A DNA stretch of 33,774 nucleotides from NCBI GenBank assembly GCA_030754995.1, contig JASLZG010000008.1, positions 1 through 33,774 on the forward strand. Direction: 5' to 3'. Origin of the DNA: Lentisphaeria bacterium (lineage in GTDB: Bacteria > Verrucomicrobiota > Lentisphaeria > JABSQK01 > CAJWLW01). The notes under the pieces were generated by a model. That model made no database searches. It saw only the letters and a program-made list of their open reading frames with translations, and had not been told where the DNA came from. Shown in pieces: positions 6,840-12,605 of this stretch (position 1 is the stretch's first letter; the number at the start of each line of letters is the position of its first letter). The position numbers and the translations under genes are program-made.

Positions 6840-8159
6840 CTAGGCCTGATCGATGATGTGGTGGGCAGGGTCGGCCGCAAAGGCCGCGAGGCGGTCCAGA
6901 ACGACGCCCATGTGCGCCGGGCGGCCGTGGGGTTCCTTGGCCAGGCACTGGTCGACCAGCAGCTCGTCCCACACCTCCGGCACCCCGGGGCGACGCTCGG
7001 ACGGGCGTTGAGCGATGTCGTGCAGATGCCGGTGCAGTACCGCCATGGCGTTGTCGCCGGTGAAGGGCGGTTCGCCAGCGAGCAGGTGATACATCGTGGC
7101 GCCGTACGAGTAGATATCGACAGCCAGCGTGATCTCCGTGCCAAGAAACTGTTCCGGGGCGATGTAGAACGGCGTACCCAGTGTCGTGTTGCTCCGGGTC
7201 AGCCGGGTGTCGCCGGAGGTCAGGGCGATGCCGAAATCACCCAGCTTCACGACGTTGTCAGGGCCGAGATAGACATTGTCAAGCTTGATATCGCGGTGCA
7301 CAACCGCGTTGTCGTGTACGTACTTGAGCACTTCCGCCAGACCCTTGGCGACGGCCAGGATGGTCGCGCCCGGCACCTGTCCTTCGTGGATCAGCCAGCG
7401 CAGGTCCTTGCCCGCCATATATTCCATGACATAAAACGGACAATCCCGATAGGTCCCGTGGTCGTAGATCTGAATGAGGTTCGGGTGATTGAGCTCCTTC
7501 ATGATGCGCATTTCGCGCTCGAACCGTTTGTGCGTCTCCTCGTCGGCCGCCGTGTGTTCGGCCAGCAGTTTGATGACGAAGCCGTCGCCGTTGTCGTGTT
7601 CGGCCCGGTAGATGAGCGAGGTGCCGCTCCAGCCAAGCAACTTGGTGATTGTGTACTCGCCCACGCGCTGCCCCGCGTAAGGCCGCGCCAGATGGGTCAT
7701 CGCCGCCGGATCCCCCGGAACGCCTGCCTGCTGTGACCGACTGAGCAGCAACGTGATCTTGGCCAGGAGCTGTTCGGGCTGGAAAGGCTTCGATATGAAA
7801 TCGTCCGCCCCCGCCTCGATCCCGGTAATATGATCTTCCACAGCATCGAGGCCGGTGAGCATGATGACCGGGAAAAACGGCGAGATGCGCTGCTTGATCT
7901 GGCGGCAGATCTCGAAACCGTCGATGTCCGGCAGCATGACGTCGAGTACGACCAGGGAAAAACTTGTGTCCGGGCCGTCGAGGTCAACCCGGGGCGGTGA
8001 CGCCGTATCGCTGAGCCCGAGCAGCGCCAGGGCTTCGCTACCGCGCCGCGTGTCATGGACGTTCCCGAAGCCGGCTGCTTCCAGCTCGTCCTTGACGAGG
8101 AAAACGTCGGCCTCGTCATCGTCGACGACCAGGATCGGCATTGTCTTGTAGTCAGTCAT
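6840..8159 (-). CDS. Receiver domain fused to Hanks-type Ser/Thr protein kinase
   Basis: A 439-aa hybrid joining two phosphorylation systems. Residues 8-140 are a CheY-like receiver: acidic pocket DDDE (13-16), phospho-acceptor Asp73 in VLDVMLPD, Thr102, and Lys124 in ISKP. A ~25-aa linker leads to a eukaryote-like kinase domain (166-430): VIK Lys197, alpha-C Glu216, HRDIKLDN (Asp290, Asn295), DFG (308-310), a Ser/Thr-rich activation loop (TRSNTTLGTP) and APE (334-336). The glycine loop is atypical, LLGWSGTSLIYRA, with two expected glycines replaced by Ser, but the catalytic residues are all present, so I expect activity. There is no transmembrane segment, unlike PknB-type kinases, so it should be cytosolic with the receiver as its input. 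It is the second gene of a pair, 35 nt after a stand-alone response regulator and divergent from a histidine kinase. Start is ATG 8159; Met7 is a weaker alternative. Confidence 0.93.
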   Translation of the reverse strand: MTDYKTMPILVVDDDEADVFLVKDELEAAGFGNVHDTRRGSEALALLGLSDTASPPRVDLDGPDTSFSLVVLDVMLPDIDGFEICRQIKQRISPFFPVIMLTGLDAVEDHITGIEAGADDFISKPFQPEQLLAKITLLLSRSQQAGVPGDPAAMTHLARPYAGQRVGEYTITKLLGWSGTSLIYRAEHDNGDGFVIKLLAEHTAADEETHKRFEREMRIMKELNHPNLIQIYDHGTYRDCPFYVMEYMAGKDLRWLIHEGQVPGATILAVAKGLAEVLKYVHDNAVVHRDIKLDNVYLGPDNVVKLGDFGIALTSGDTRLTRSNTTLGTPFYIAPEQFLGTEITLAVDIYSYGATMYHLLAGEPPFTGDNAMAVLHRHLHDIAQRPSERRPGVPEVWDELLVDQCLAKEPHGRPAHMGVVLDRLAAFAADPAHHIIDQA

Positions 8160-8194
8160 TTTGCTAAATCACACCGGGTGTGGCGCGCCGTGGC

Positions 8195-8644
8195 TCATCT
8201 TGATTGCGGCAGGCTCGCGGTTTGCATCCAGAACAGTTCAATGGCGTTGACGAGGCGTTCGAAATCGGCCATTGCCGCGGGCTTCGAGACATAACAGTTG
8301 GCGCCGAGCCGATAGGCCTGCTCGATTTCGTCCCTCTCCTGCGACGTGGTCAAGACGATCACCGGCAGGTGCTGCAACTGCTCGGTGGCGCGAATTTCCT
8401 GCAGCACTTCACGACCGTCTTTGCGGGGCATGTTCAGGTCGAGCAGGATCAGATCAGGCAGGCAGGCGACGGGCACGTGAGTGCAACTGCGCAGGTATTC
8501 CAGTGCATCGATGCCGTCGTGCACGACATGAATTTCAAGAGCGGTAGCGCATTCCTCCAGCAGCTCCTGGATGATCTCGGCATCGGCCGGGTCGTCGTCA
8601 ACGATCAGAATGCGAATCGTTCGTGCTGCCATCTCGTCTATCAT
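8195..8644 (-). CDS. Single-domain response regulator (Rcp1/CheY-like)
   Basis: A 149-aa stand-alone receiver without an output domain. It has the acidic triad DDD (16-18), phospho-acceptor Asp69 in LLDLNMPRKDG, Thr99-Thr100, and Lys121 in VSKP. The LLDLNMPRKDGREVL stretch and the length are typical of Rcp1-type regulators that partner phytochrome-like histidine kinases with an 'SHDLQEPLR' phosphorylation motif, exactly the kind encoded divergently at 8815. It likely accepts phosphate from that kinase and acts by protein contact or as a relay intermediate; the target is unknown, and the receiver-kinase fusion downstream is the obvious candidate. Two in-frame starts are possible (ATG 8644 or ATG 8632, giving 149 or 145 aa); neither has a strong ribosome site. 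The two minus-strand genes are 35 nt apart and probably co-transcribed. Confidence 0.94.
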   Translation of the reverse strand: MIDEMAARTIRILIVDDDPADAEIIQELLEECATALEIHVVHDGIDALEYLRSCTHVPVACLPDLILLDLNMPRKDGREVLQEIRATEQLQHLPVIVLTTSQERDEIEQAYRLGANCYVSKPAAMADFERLVNAIELFWMQTASLPQSR

Positions 8645-8711
8645 GGTCTGCTTGAATTGGTTCGGGGTACCGGTGAATGGCGCCGCCCAGCCACGACCGG
8701 CGCGCTATACA

Positions 8712-8726
8712 GGTAGAGTCGCTACC
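8712..8726. repeat. Perfect 5-5-5 inverted repeat in the divergent signalling promoter region
   Basis: GGTAG-AGTCG-CTACC is a perfect inverted repeat lying just upstream of the candidate -35 box of the histidine kinase and within the 170-bp region between divergent start codons. A dyad in this place could be an operator shared by both transcripts. The arms are short, so chance is a real alternative. CTACC recurs twice more (8785 and 8791). Confidence 0.25.
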
Positions 8727-8731
8727 ATTCG

Positions 8732-8759
8732 TTGCAATTCAGTAAAATTCCAGTAACAT
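8732..8759 (+). promoter_or_regulatory. Candidate sigma70-type promoter for the histidine kinase-hemH unit
   Basis: TTGCAA (8732-8737), a 16-nt spacer and TAACAT (8754-8759) lie about 55 nt before the kinase ATG in a locally AT-richer stretch. Each box matches the consensus at four of six positions. There is no clear Shine-Dalgarno sequence before the ATG. Confidence 0.3.
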
Positions 8760-8814
8760 TGCGCAGAAATCGGTCCCACTTCACCTACCCCTACCGTTCC
8801 CGGCCGCCTCTTTA

Positions 8815-11649
8815 ATGAATCGAGCCGCAGCAAATCATTGGTCACGGACACTCGCCGTGTGCGCCGGTGCCATCGTCGCCCTGGTCGGAGCCCTGGTCAT
8901 TGTCGGCTGGTACGTGGGCAATCATTTCCTGATCCAGGTGCAGCCCGGTTCCCCCCCGATGCAGTTTAACACGGCGCTGGCCCTGATTCTCGCCGGTGTG
9001 GGCATTCTCAATGCCGTCACGTGGGAGGTGCGGCCGGTCTCGCTGGGCACCGGTCTCCTTTGTACGGCACTTGGCGGCCTGACGATGGCGCAATACGCCG
9101 GCGGCGGCGATTTTGGCATCGACGAATTTTTCTTTGCCCACGACGTACTCGATCGCACCGGCCCCGCTGGCCGCATGGGGCCGAACACCGCGCTGTGCTG
9201 CATCCTTGCCGGCTTGGCGCTGTTGCTCACCTGCCTGCCGCGGACTTCGCAGCGAAAGATCAGCACCATCGGCCTGCTCGGGACCTTGCAGATCGCCATT
9301 TCCGGTGTCGGCTTGTTCGGCTATGTCTCCAACCCCGGGTCAGCCTACGGCTATGGCGACGCCAACCGCATGGGGGTCCACACCGCCATCGGTTTTATCG
9401 GTGTCGGGATCGGCACGCTGGCCTATGCCTGGAGCGTTACCGTTTCACGTGCCTGGGAGGTGCCTCGCTGGTTCTCGGCGCTGGCCGGCGTCTGCAGCCT
9501 CACCGTGACACTTTGTCTGTGGCTTTCCCTGGCGGCGCAGGAGAAACAACAGATCGACCGCCTGATCACGACCACGGCCAGGCAACTCGGTGACGAACTG
9601 TCGCTGGAACTGCGGTCGCTGGTGCTGCCGATGCGGCGCAACGCCTGGCAGTGGCAGGACGAGAGCGGCATCGATCGCAACGGCTGGGGGGCGAACTTGC
9701 GCGGCCAGCTCAAGGAGCTGCACGCCTACGTCGCCGGCGGCCGTGTCGACGAGGATATGCAGACGCGCTGGTCGGCCGCGTTCAACACCGACAACGTCCG
9801 CCTGCCCGACGACCTCGCCGCATACCCCGTTGCCCGCTCGGCACTCGGCGCGGCACAGCGCCACAGGGATGTGACGCTGTCCGGACGCCTGCAACTGCCC
9901 GGCCTGGAAAGCGGTGTCATGGTCATCGCGCCAACCTCATCCAACGATACACCCAACGGTTTCGTTGTCGGCCTGCTCGACATGAGCCCCTTTGCCAAAA
10001 TCCTCGATCAAGCCGATGAAGGGTTCGAATACTCTGTCTTCGACGCAAAAAACGGGCTGCTCTACAGCCGTGGCCGGACGTTGCCGCACCTCGACGCAAA
10101 ATGGGGCCGCAACGTTCAATTGACGCTGCTCGGCACCACCTTCCATATCCACGTGGCGCCGGCACAGTCGACCCTGCTCGCCGAACAGTCCCTGGTCACC
10201 GCATGGATATTGCTGGCAGGCATCGTCGTCAGCCTCCTGCTGACGATGACCATCCACTTTGCCCAGACGTCCATTGACCAGACCGAAGCGCTGACCGCCA
10301 GCAACGACAAGCTGACGCTGGAAATCAACGTCCGTCGGTCAGCCGAGCACCAGCTGCAGGAGGCGCACCGCGACCTGCAGATGCGCGGGCTGCAGCTGAT
10401 CAGCATGACCGAGACCGCCAAAGCCGTCAACAGCGCCGACTCGCTCGAGGACGCCGTCCACATCACCTCCATGCATACCCGGTCGATTATCGGCACCCAC
10501 CTGGCGTTTGTCTGCTGCCGAGAGGGCGACGACTGGGGCCATGCGATGCGCTCGCTCAATCTCTCCGAGAAATATGACGCCGCCACTTCCTACGACATGA
10601 TCCCGCATGCCCAGGGCCTCTACTCCCATACCTGCGAGCAAAACCAGCCGGTGCGGCTGTCGGCCGCCGAGCTCGGCGCGCATCCGCGCTGGCACGGTTG
10701 TGACGCCACCGCTGACCTGCCAAAAATGCGCGGCTGGCTGGCCGCACCACTGATCGCTCACGACGGGGGCAACCTCGGGTTCATTCAGGTTTCCGACAAG
10801 TACCAGGGTGAATTCACCGAGGAAGACGAGATCGTCCTCATGCAGTTGGCGCAACTCGCGTCCACCGCGATCGAAATGCAGATCGCCAGGCGCAACCTCG
10901 AACTTCAAGCGGAGGAGCTGACCCGCTCGAACACCGAGCTCGAGCAATTCGCCAACGTCGCGTCGCACGACCTGCAGGAACCCCTGCGCAAGATCATCGG
11001 ATTCACCGACCGCCTCGAGGAGAAATACAAGGACCAGTTCGACCAAAAGGCCAATCGATACCTTCACTACATCAACGACGGCGCCGGCCGCATGCAGCAG
11101 CTCATCAAGGATCTGCTCGCCTTGTCGCGCGTCGGACGCCTTGGCCGGAAATTCGAACTCACCGACTGCAGGGATGTCGTCGCCCAGGCGGTCGACAACC
11201 TGGAGGCCGCTATCGCCGAACACGACGGCAAAGTCATTTTTGATGAACTGCCGGTCGTCATGGGCGACGCCACCCAGCTCACCCAGTTGTTTCAGAATCT
11301 CATCGGCAACGCGATCAAATTCCACGGTGACGAACCGCCCGTCGTCAACGTCACCGCCGAGGACATCGGCACTGAATGGCAGATCAAGATTCGCGACAAC
11401 GGCATCGGAATCGACCCGAAGTATGCCGATCGCATTTTCGTCATCTTCCAGCGGCTCCACACGCGCACCGACTATCCCGGAACGGGTATCGGCCTGGCGA
11501 TCTGCAAGAAAATCGTCGAGCGCCACAGCGGCCGAATTCGAGTCGAGGCGGGAAGTGAAGGTGGCAGCGTCTTTTGTTTCACCCTGCCGAAAATGGATTT
11601 GCCGGACGAGGCCAGAAAGACACAATTATCGGTTACCGCTGTGCCATGA
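8815..11649 (+). CDS. Membrane sensor histidine kinase with GAF domain (phytochrome-type HisKA)
   Basis: A 944-aa sensor kinase. Residues ~10-210 are an N-terminal multi-helix membrane module in which an M-x2-(N/H)-T-A-(L/I) motif recurs three times (near 49, 121 and 186). A TM helix at ~218-236, a ~215-residue extracytoplasmic domain and a TM helix at ~461-480 (TAWILLAGIVVSLLL) follow. Then come a coiled-coil linker (~490-530), a GAF domain (~535-695), HisKA with phospho-acceptor His718 in ASHDLQEPLRK, and an HATPase_c domain with N-box Asn832, DNGIGI from Asp861 and GTGIGLAI (889-896). There is no C-terminal receiver; the receivers are encoded separately by the divergent pair at 6840-8644. 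The HisKA style is that of phytochrome-like kinases, but I see no convincing bilin-binding Cys in the GAF, so the ligand is unknown. The stop overlaps the hemH start (ATGA). Confidence 0.95.
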   Translation: MNRAAANHWSRTLAVCAGAIVALVGALVIVGWYVGNHFLIQVQPGSPPMQFNTALALILAGVGILNAVTWEVRPVSLGTGLLCTALGGLTMAQYAGGGDFGIDEFFFAHDVLDRTGPAGRMGPNTALCCILAGLALLLTCLPRTSQRKISTIGLLGTLQIAISGVGLFGYVSNPGSAYGYGDANRMGVHTAIGFIGVGIGTLAYAWSVTVSRAWEVPRWFSALAGVCSLTVTLCLWLSLAAQEKQQIDRLITTTARQLGDELSLELRSLVLPMRRNAWQWQDESGIDRNGWGANLRGQLKELHAYVAGGRVDEDMQTRWSAAFNTDNVRLPDDLAAYPVARSALGAAQRHRDVTLSGRLQLPGLESGVMVIAPTSSNDTPNGFVVGLLDMSPFAKILDQADEGFEYSVFDAKNGLLYSRGRTLPHLDAKWGRNVQLTLLGTTFHIHVAPAQSTLLAEQSLVTAWILLAGIVVSLLLTMTIHFAQTSIDQTEALTASNDKLTLEINVRRSAEHQLQEAHRDLQMRGLQLISMTETAKAVNSADSLEDAVHITSMHTRSIIGTHLAFVCCREGDDWGHAMRSLNLSEKYDAATSYDMIPHAQGLYSHTCEQNQPVRLSAAELGAHPRWHGCDATADLPKMRGWLAAPLIAHDGGNLGFIQVSDKYQGEFTEEDEIVLMQLAQLASTAIEMQIARRNLELQAEELTRSNTELEQFANVASHDLQEPLRKIIGFTDRLEEKYKDQFDQKANRYLHYINDGAGRMQQLIKDLLALSRVGRLGRKFELTDCRDVVAQAVDNLEAAIAEHDGKVIFDELPVVMGDATQLTQLFQNLIGNAIKFHGDEPPVVNVTAEDIGTEWQIKIRDNGIGIDPKYADRIFVIFQRLHTRTDYPGTGIGLAICKKIVERHSGRIRVEAGSEGGSVFCFTLPKMDLPDEARKTQLSVTAVP

Positions 11650-12605
11650 CTGCTGAAACAGCATACGACGCCGTCGTCCTGGTTTCCTTCGGCGGCCCGG
11701 AGAAGCGGGCCGACGTCCTGCCCTTCCTGGATAACGTGCTGCGGGGACGGCGTGTCCCCGAGGCACGCAGACTGGAAGTCGCCGAGTACTATTACCAGTT
11801 CAACGGTGTCAGCCCGATCAATCAGCGCAATCGCGAGATTATTGCGGCGCTGAGCCAACTCCTCGCCGACCGGGAGATTCGTTTGCCGATCTACTTCGGC
11901 AATCGCAACTGGCATCCGCTGCTGGCAGAGACGTTCGCCGGCATGCGTGACGACGGCGTCAAACGGGCCATGGCCGTAGTGACCTCTGCGTTTGGCTCTT
12001 ATTCAGGTTGCCGGCAGTATCGGGAGGACATCGACGACGCCTGTGCGGCCGTCGACGGTGCTCCCGCAGTCGACAAGCTGCCGCTTTTCTGGGATAGTGA
12101 CGGCTTCATCACTGCTGCTGCCGATCGTCTGCGGGAGGCGCTCGACGCAGTTGCTACGAACGACGTCCGGGTTGCATTCACGGCACACAGCATTCCACTC
12201 GAGATGGCGGCCGTATCGCCCTACGAGGCGCAGCTGAACGCGGCCTGCGAAGCCGTCGCCAGCCGTTGCGAACAACCTCCCTGGGACCTGGTTTACCAGA
12301 GTCGCAGCGGCCCGGCGTCGCAGCCCTGGCTCAAGCCCGACATCTGCGGTCATCTCGAGGCGATAGCTGGCAATTGCCGCACCGTGATCATCCACCCGAT
12401 CGGTTTCCTGTCCGATCATCTCGAGGTGCTTTATGATCTCGACACCAAGGCGCGCGCGGTCTGCGACCGGCTGAATCTGAACATGATCCGCGCCGGCACT
12501 GTCGGCGACCACCCGGCGCTGATCGGGGCCCTGGCCGATCTCGTCCAGAACCACCTCGATCCCGCCGTCCAAATCCCTTCCTGCCCGGTCGGCTGTTGCC
12601 GGTGA
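11646..12605 (+). CDS. hemH: Ferrochelatase (protoheme or coproheme type), possible [2Fe-2S] form
   Basis: Inserts ferrous iron into a porphyrin late in heme synthesis; 319 aa, normal for bacterial enzymes. The ORF track starts at 11574, but the 24 extra residues only read the kinase gene in another frame. ATG 11646 gives the expected start (YDAVVLVSFGGPEKR) and overlaps the upstream stop as ATGA. Catalytic His181 lies in FTAHSIP, and the conserved acidic helix SDHLEVLYDLD carries Glu260. FNGVSPIN (52-59) and GNRNWHP (85-91) are family signatures. Four cysteines, Cys122 in YSGCRQY plus Cys313, Cys317 and Cys318 at the extreme C-terminus, resemble the arrangement that binds a [2Fe-2S] cluster in actinobacterial ferrochelatases. 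Sequence alone does not tell me whether it uses protoporphyrin IX or coproporphyrin III. Coupling to a sensor kinase suggests co-regulation. Confidence 0.95.
   Translation: MTAETAYDAVVLVSFGGPEKRADVLPFLDNVLRGRRVPEARRLEVAEYYYQFNGVSPINQRNREIIAALSQLLADREIRLPIYFGNRNWHPLLAETFAGMRDDGVKRAMAVVTSAFGSYSGCRQYREDIDDACAAVDGAPAVDKLPLFWDSDGFITAAADRLREALDAVATNDVRVAFTAHSIPLEMAAVSPYEAQLNAACEAVASRCEQPPWDLVYQSRSGPASQPWLKPDICGHLEAIAGNCRTVIIHPIGFLSDHLEVLYDLDTKARAVCDRLNLNMIRAGTVGDHPALIGALADLVQNHLDPAVQIPSCPVGCCR

Follow-up and report, generated by a model that had tools for sequence, protein, structure and literature searches.

A receiver-Ser/Thr kinase fusion beside a histidine kinase and an Rcp1-class receiver in a Lentisphaeria bacterium

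Background

In yeast, a Ser/Thr kinase is controlled by a receiver in the Sln1-Ypd1-Ssk1 and Ssk2 system; unlike the fusion protein described here, however, the receiver of Ssk1 works in trans on a separate MAPKKK. Response regulators in which a receiver is followed by a Hanks kinase are reportedly already listed in the domain censuses of Galperin (2006 and 2010), and they share this domain order with the present protein.

The response regulator SypE of Vibrio fischeri, which has both a Ser kinase and a Ser phosphatase domain, is a genetic precedent for the control of a Ser kinase by a receiver; its receiver, once phosphorylated under the control of the sensor kinase RscS, presumably turns the kinase off (PMC3610818). 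SypE and the present protein are alike in combining a receiver and a protein Ser kinase in one chain; in SypE, however, the kinase is HPK-like and not of the Hanks type, the receiver is central, and an extra PP2C phosphatase is present. Cross-phosphorylation of response regulators by Ser/Thr kinases has also been reported and runs in the opposite direction to the gating proposed below (PMC6010298). No experimentally characterised receiver-Hanks-kinase protein was found in a literature search that covered few subscription papers, nor was the class-wide expansion of such proteins found described there, including in the main text of a survey of Planctomycetota Ser/Thr kinases (PMC11032199).

Results and discussion

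Organization of the locus

The window, the whole analysed stretch of 33,774 nucleotides from a Lentisphaeria bacterium (GenBank assembly GCA_030754995.1, contig JASLZG010000008.1), contains the three intact open reading frames reported in the first-pass annotation: a histidine kinase (HK) lacking a receiver, a stand-alone Rcp1-like receiver, and a receiver fused to a Hanks-type Ser/Thr kinase (STK). All of their catalytic residues are intact, and the E-values of the domains exclude chance as a source of the assignments.

The receiver-STK fusion (6840..8159, minus strand; 439 aa) was delimited by Pfam domains, residue checks and an AF2 model. A Response_reg domain (PF00072, residues 9-135, E 3.9e-23) is followed by a Pkinase domain (169-416, E 3.6e-44), and a flexible linker at about 146-165 separates the two. 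The receiver has the receiver fold and the complete set of response-regulator residues, namely the acidic pair D13/D14, the beta3 acceptor Asp73, T102 and K124. The Hanks kinase is equally complete, with the VAIK Lys (K197), the alphaC Glu (E216), HRD at 288-290, N295, DFG at 308-310 and APE. No transmembrane segment was detected in the protein (maximum hydropathy 1.38). In the AF2 model, built from a 46-row alignment (mean pLDDT 89.1, pTM 0.79), receiver and kinase are both confident and the linker has low confidence (pLDDT below 50 at residues 147-156); the model supports no claim of an interface between the two domains.

PknB/PknA-type Hanks kinases are the closest described kinases. The kinase domain is most similar to PknB by phmmer (E 7e-42), and a Foldseek search with the fusion model returned kinases only, the nearest being PknB (5u94, TM 0.92 normalised by target). 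Unlike PknB and PknA, the predicted protein has neither PASTA repeats nor a transmembrane segment, and its regulatory input is a receiver; no PASTA match was obtained, and the score against the NF033483 equivalog (235.9) lies under the cut-off of 450.

The stand-alone receiver (8195..8644, minus strand; 149 aa) is encoded on the same strand 35 bp upstream of the fusion, and was assigned from Pfam, PDB sequence matches and residues. Its acceptor is D69, and T100 and K121 are also present. The best solved relatives are RcpA (1k68, E 1.5e-34) and Rcp1 (1i3c, 9e-33), and the alignment to 1k68 runs over residues 11-146, including the C-terminal FW...LP extension of the Rcp1 class. The divergent intergenic region of 170 bp that separates this gene from the HK (8645..8814, defined by ORF spacing) is presumed to contain both promoters; a promoter and terminator scan was blank, with no sigma-70-like match in the region.

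The membrane HK (8815..11649, plus strand; 944 aa) has transmembrane segments at its N-terminus, a further one at about 460-478, and a sub-threshold CHASE-like outer stretch at residues 333-412 (E 0.0025). Domains above the Pfam cut-offs are GAF (587-687), HisKA (709-773) and HATPase_c (817-926), with no receiver domain of its own. HisKA carries the SHDLQEPLR motif with His718, and HATPase_c carries the N, G1 and G2 boxes. As in the Rcp1/RcpA systems of cyanobacterial phytochromes, the lone receiver thus lies beside a kinase of the SHDLQEPLR type; unlike in those systems, the kinase combines transmembrane segments with a GAF domain, and the PAS_2-GAF-PHY photosensor is absent from it. A phytochrome identity was dropped, as the GAF domain is accompanied by no PHY or PAS_2 match in Pfam.

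The receiver-STK family

A protein search for receiver-STK fusions covered 60 relatives. Fusions are present in the window genome and in every genome of the same order that was tested, with the exception of the small genome G002. Six were found in the window genome (the window protein, L031, L033, L034, L035 and L036), and the 4-Mb genome G004 contains at least 18 two-domain fusions (16, and 2 more from the control set described below) and one longer form, against 66 Pkinase matches. With a family profile and 241 sampled genomes of the phylum, full-length fusions were detected in 17 or more genomes belonging to the class and in at least one outside it; these counts are lower bounds, with seven candidates scored per genome. 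The receiver-STK fusions form a large family of paralogues, their domain combination is widespread in the class, and the window contains a genuine locus of this expanded, uncharacterised family. In named genomes, a scan with the window fusion returned kinases or receivers, none combining both domains; the fusion profile, run against six named genomes, gave nearly all kinase-only matches, with one Acaryochloris frame covering profile positions 6-343. Matches to PF07596 are a hint, though no proof, of an origin in the Planctomycetota or a neighbouring group. In a tree of the kinase domains, which is a quick tree with several open forks, the fusions occupy a small number of clades, with much stronger clustering than shuffled labels show; the neighbours of the window fusion include L131, L134, L142, L156 and L031.

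Identity of the family members to the window fusion is just 25-42%. At this distance, the acceptor Asp is kept in 48/49 aligned fusions, T/S102 in 48/49 and K124 in 43/49, while the catalytic Lys, alphaC Glu, catalytic Asp, DFG Asp and APE Glu are present in all 49. Such near invariance suggests that both chemistries are maintained across the family, and the retention of the acceptor Asp is the main ground for thinking that phosphorylation of this residue is important to the kinases. The window fusion is likely to be an Asp-gated kinase. The receiver could otherwise be a docking or dimerisation module only, with the Asp site as a relic and the kinase under other regulation. Two paralogues in the window genome show that receiver chemistry can vanish while the kinase domain stays: in L031 (3387-4772, minus strand), the nearest paralogue, the acceptor Asp is replaced by His, and L032 (7332-8555, minus strand) has no recognisable receiver. 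These are, however, the sole decayed cases in the first set, and the other members keep Asp, T/S and Lys almost without change, which makes a purely structural receiver very improbable.

A longer architecture of about 730 aa was also observed, in which a receiver and a sigma-54-type AAA+ region are followed by a Hanks kinase in place of the NtrC DNA-binding domain. Five such REC-AAA-STK proteins were found (L241:5013-7214, L256:7236-9425, L256:5005-7212 and L260:5050-7206, all on the minus strand, and L264:3781-6003 on the plus strand), each with a hybrid HK nearby. Their AAA+ region, which by its sequence appears to be a degenerate sigma-54 ATPase, matched none of the Walker A, Walker B and GAFTGA patterns. 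Receiver-STK genes also adjoin each other, in divergent pairs at L144 (6650-9720) and L145 (7741-10859) and in a convergent pair at L166 (7605-10118).

Histidine kinases near receiver-STK genes

Neighbourhoods of the family loci were annotated with profiles made from the window's own domains. An HK lies within 3 kb of 14/53 two-domain fusions, compared with 3/62 STKs without a receiver (Fisher p 0.0012); in G004 and G005 alone the figures are 11/28 and 2/39 (p 0.0007), and both p values are optimistic, since neither paralogues nor paired loci count as independent observations. The receiver-less STKs come largely from the same genomes as the fusions, and they were preferred as a control because a background model of HK density ignores the length of HK genes. 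Tight operons were found in L140, in the order HK-REC-REC-(REC-STK), and with short overlaps in L166, in the order HK-RR-RR-(REC-STK); in L241 and L260 a hybrid HK is followed by a REC-AAA-STK gene. A lone receiver directly upstream of a receiver-STK recurs at L033 (1748-3504, minus strand; 8 bp) and L162 (7701-9341, minus strand; 15 bp), where the receivers are not of the Rcp1 class.

The near-universal acceptor Asp, the enrichment of adjacent HKs and the tight operons support the interpretation that receiver-STKs act as response regulators with a kinase output. The check that had been proposed for the locus, whether receiver-STK genes are found beside such an HK, gave a divided answer: the association holds for the fusions as a group, even if the majority of them lack a nearby HK, but neither an HK nor an Rcp1 gene adjoins the nearest relatives of the window fusion.

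Conservation of the three-gene cluster

Orthologues of the window fusion (L131, L134, L142 and L156) have no HK or Rcp1 gene in the fetched flanks, which total 5-10 kb, and the nearest paralogue, L031, has no HK in its flank on a contig of 5 kb. The orthologues adjoin variable housekeeping genes, such as those for elongation factor P, SufB/D, YebC and DnaX; these neighbours differ from one another and indicate no common target from which a shared function might be read.

The other two genes present a different arrangement. The nearest relatives of the window Rcp1 all adjoin a HisKA kinase, and most of the best relatives of the HK core in the order belong to HK-Rcp1 pairs; only the kinase core is matched in the genomes of the order, the sensor region being unmatched. 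In relatives of the class, an operon of HK, Rcp1-class receiver and receiver-headed hybrid HK recurs (L214, L215, L216, L217, L220, L221 and L223). The receiver-STK is absent from every HK/Rcp1 locus of relatives, so that HK, Rcp1 and receiver-STK were nowhere found together in them. As most such pairs in relatives are followed by a hybrid HK in third position, the window locus can be described as the recurrent HK-Rcp1 pair with a receiver-STK in that position in its place. Most likely, the pair is conserved and its operon gained the receiver-STK in the lineage of the window.

The trio is lineage-specific, it concerns one member of the family, and it is not a new system. The suggestion that it was new does not survive the lack of conservation of the trio, the genetic precedent of SypE (PMC3610818) and the wide distribution of the receiver-STK combination in the class.

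This distribution of neighbours bears directly on whether the fusion belongs to the pathway of the local HK. It may be that HK and Rcp1 form a private pair. The receiver-STK would then be an orphan regulator that receives its phosphate from another HK or from acetyl phosphate and simply came to lie in the rcp1 operon. The orphaned position of its closest relatives is what this explanation predicts, as is the rule among relatives that HK-Rcp1 pairs occur without a receiver-STK, and for 35/49 fusions of the first set the 3 kb on either side are free of HK genes. The explanation accounts poorly for the spacing of only 35 bp to rcp1 on the same strand, for the recurrence of lone receivers paired with receiver-STKs (L033, L162), and for the third slot of most relatives' operons, which likewise holds a receiver-headed kinase. 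It is regarded as a serious but less probable alternative.

Proposed signalling pathway

The locus may best be read as a branched two-component system, to which a probability of about one half is assigned. The membrane HK would sense an extracellular signal, or a signal received via its GAF domain, and with its motifs intact it would autophosphorylate on His718. Its ancestral and main partner would be the neighbouring Rcp1-class receiver, with which it forms a recurrent gene pair and to which it is expected to transfer phosphate. The receiver-STK, in the slot downstream of rcp1 that a receiver-headed hybrid HK occupies in most relatives, would be phosphorylated directly by the HK on Asp73. Phospho-Asp73 may then alter the packing or dimerisation of the receiver, and thereby increase or decrease the trans-autophosphorylation of the attached Hanks kinase; that kinase would go on to phosphorylate Ser/Thr targets. 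Rcp1 could act as a competing acceptor or sink, or it could have an output of its own.

Favouring the branched reading are the complete catalytic residues of the three proteins, the family-wide retention of the Asp, the enrichment of HKs, the tight operons (L140, L166, L241 and L260), the loci with a lone receiver and a receiver-STK, and the HisKA kinases adjoining the Rcp1 relatives. It is weakened by the four orthologues and L031 without an HK, by the HK/Rcp1 loci of relatives without a receiver-STK, and by the unmatched sensor of the HK. The parts of the pathway differ in strength. That the local HK serves Rcp1 appears likely; that it serves the fusion as well is about evenly balanced, and no clear correspondence was found between the alpha1 face of the fusion receiver and that of Rcp1. 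Rcp1 would probably be served first and the fusion second.

Information might also flow in the opposite direction, with the STK tuning the His-Asp pair through Ser/Thr phosphorylation of Rcp1, of the HK or of the receiver to which it is fused, as has been reported for StkP and ComE in pneumococcus. Ser/Thr kinases acting on response regulators are documented (PMC6010298, PMC4601284), and the STK, active-looking by sequence, adjoins an HK-Rcp1 pair. Such a reverse flow, however, leaves unexplained why the fused Asp acceptor is intact and so widely kept in the family, and it is considered improbable.

If the branched, Asp-gated reading is correct, control of a Hanks kinase by phospho-Asp in its fused receiver would represent, after SypE, a second and structurally different conversion of His-Asp into Ser/Thr signalling within one protein, and the dozens of paralogues in this lineage would constitute a natural library for the study of receiver gating of a protein kinase. 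More tentatively, the Hanks kinase may be a standard two-component output domain in the class. The abundance of two-domain fusions in the single genome G004, together with the REC-AAA-STK form, would then mean that numerous His-Asp pathways in each genome have an Asp-gated Ser/Thr kinase as their end point and that conversion of His-Asp into Ser/Thr phosphorylation is routine, with the window locus as a branch where an Rcp1-class receiver competes for phosphate.

Downstream of the HK, on the plus strand, lies a ferrochelatase gene (hemH, 11646..12605), whose start codon shares bases with the stop codon of the HK gene (ATGA). hemH is presumably co-transcribed with the HK, and the overlap suggests translational coupling of the sensor kinase to haem synthesis.
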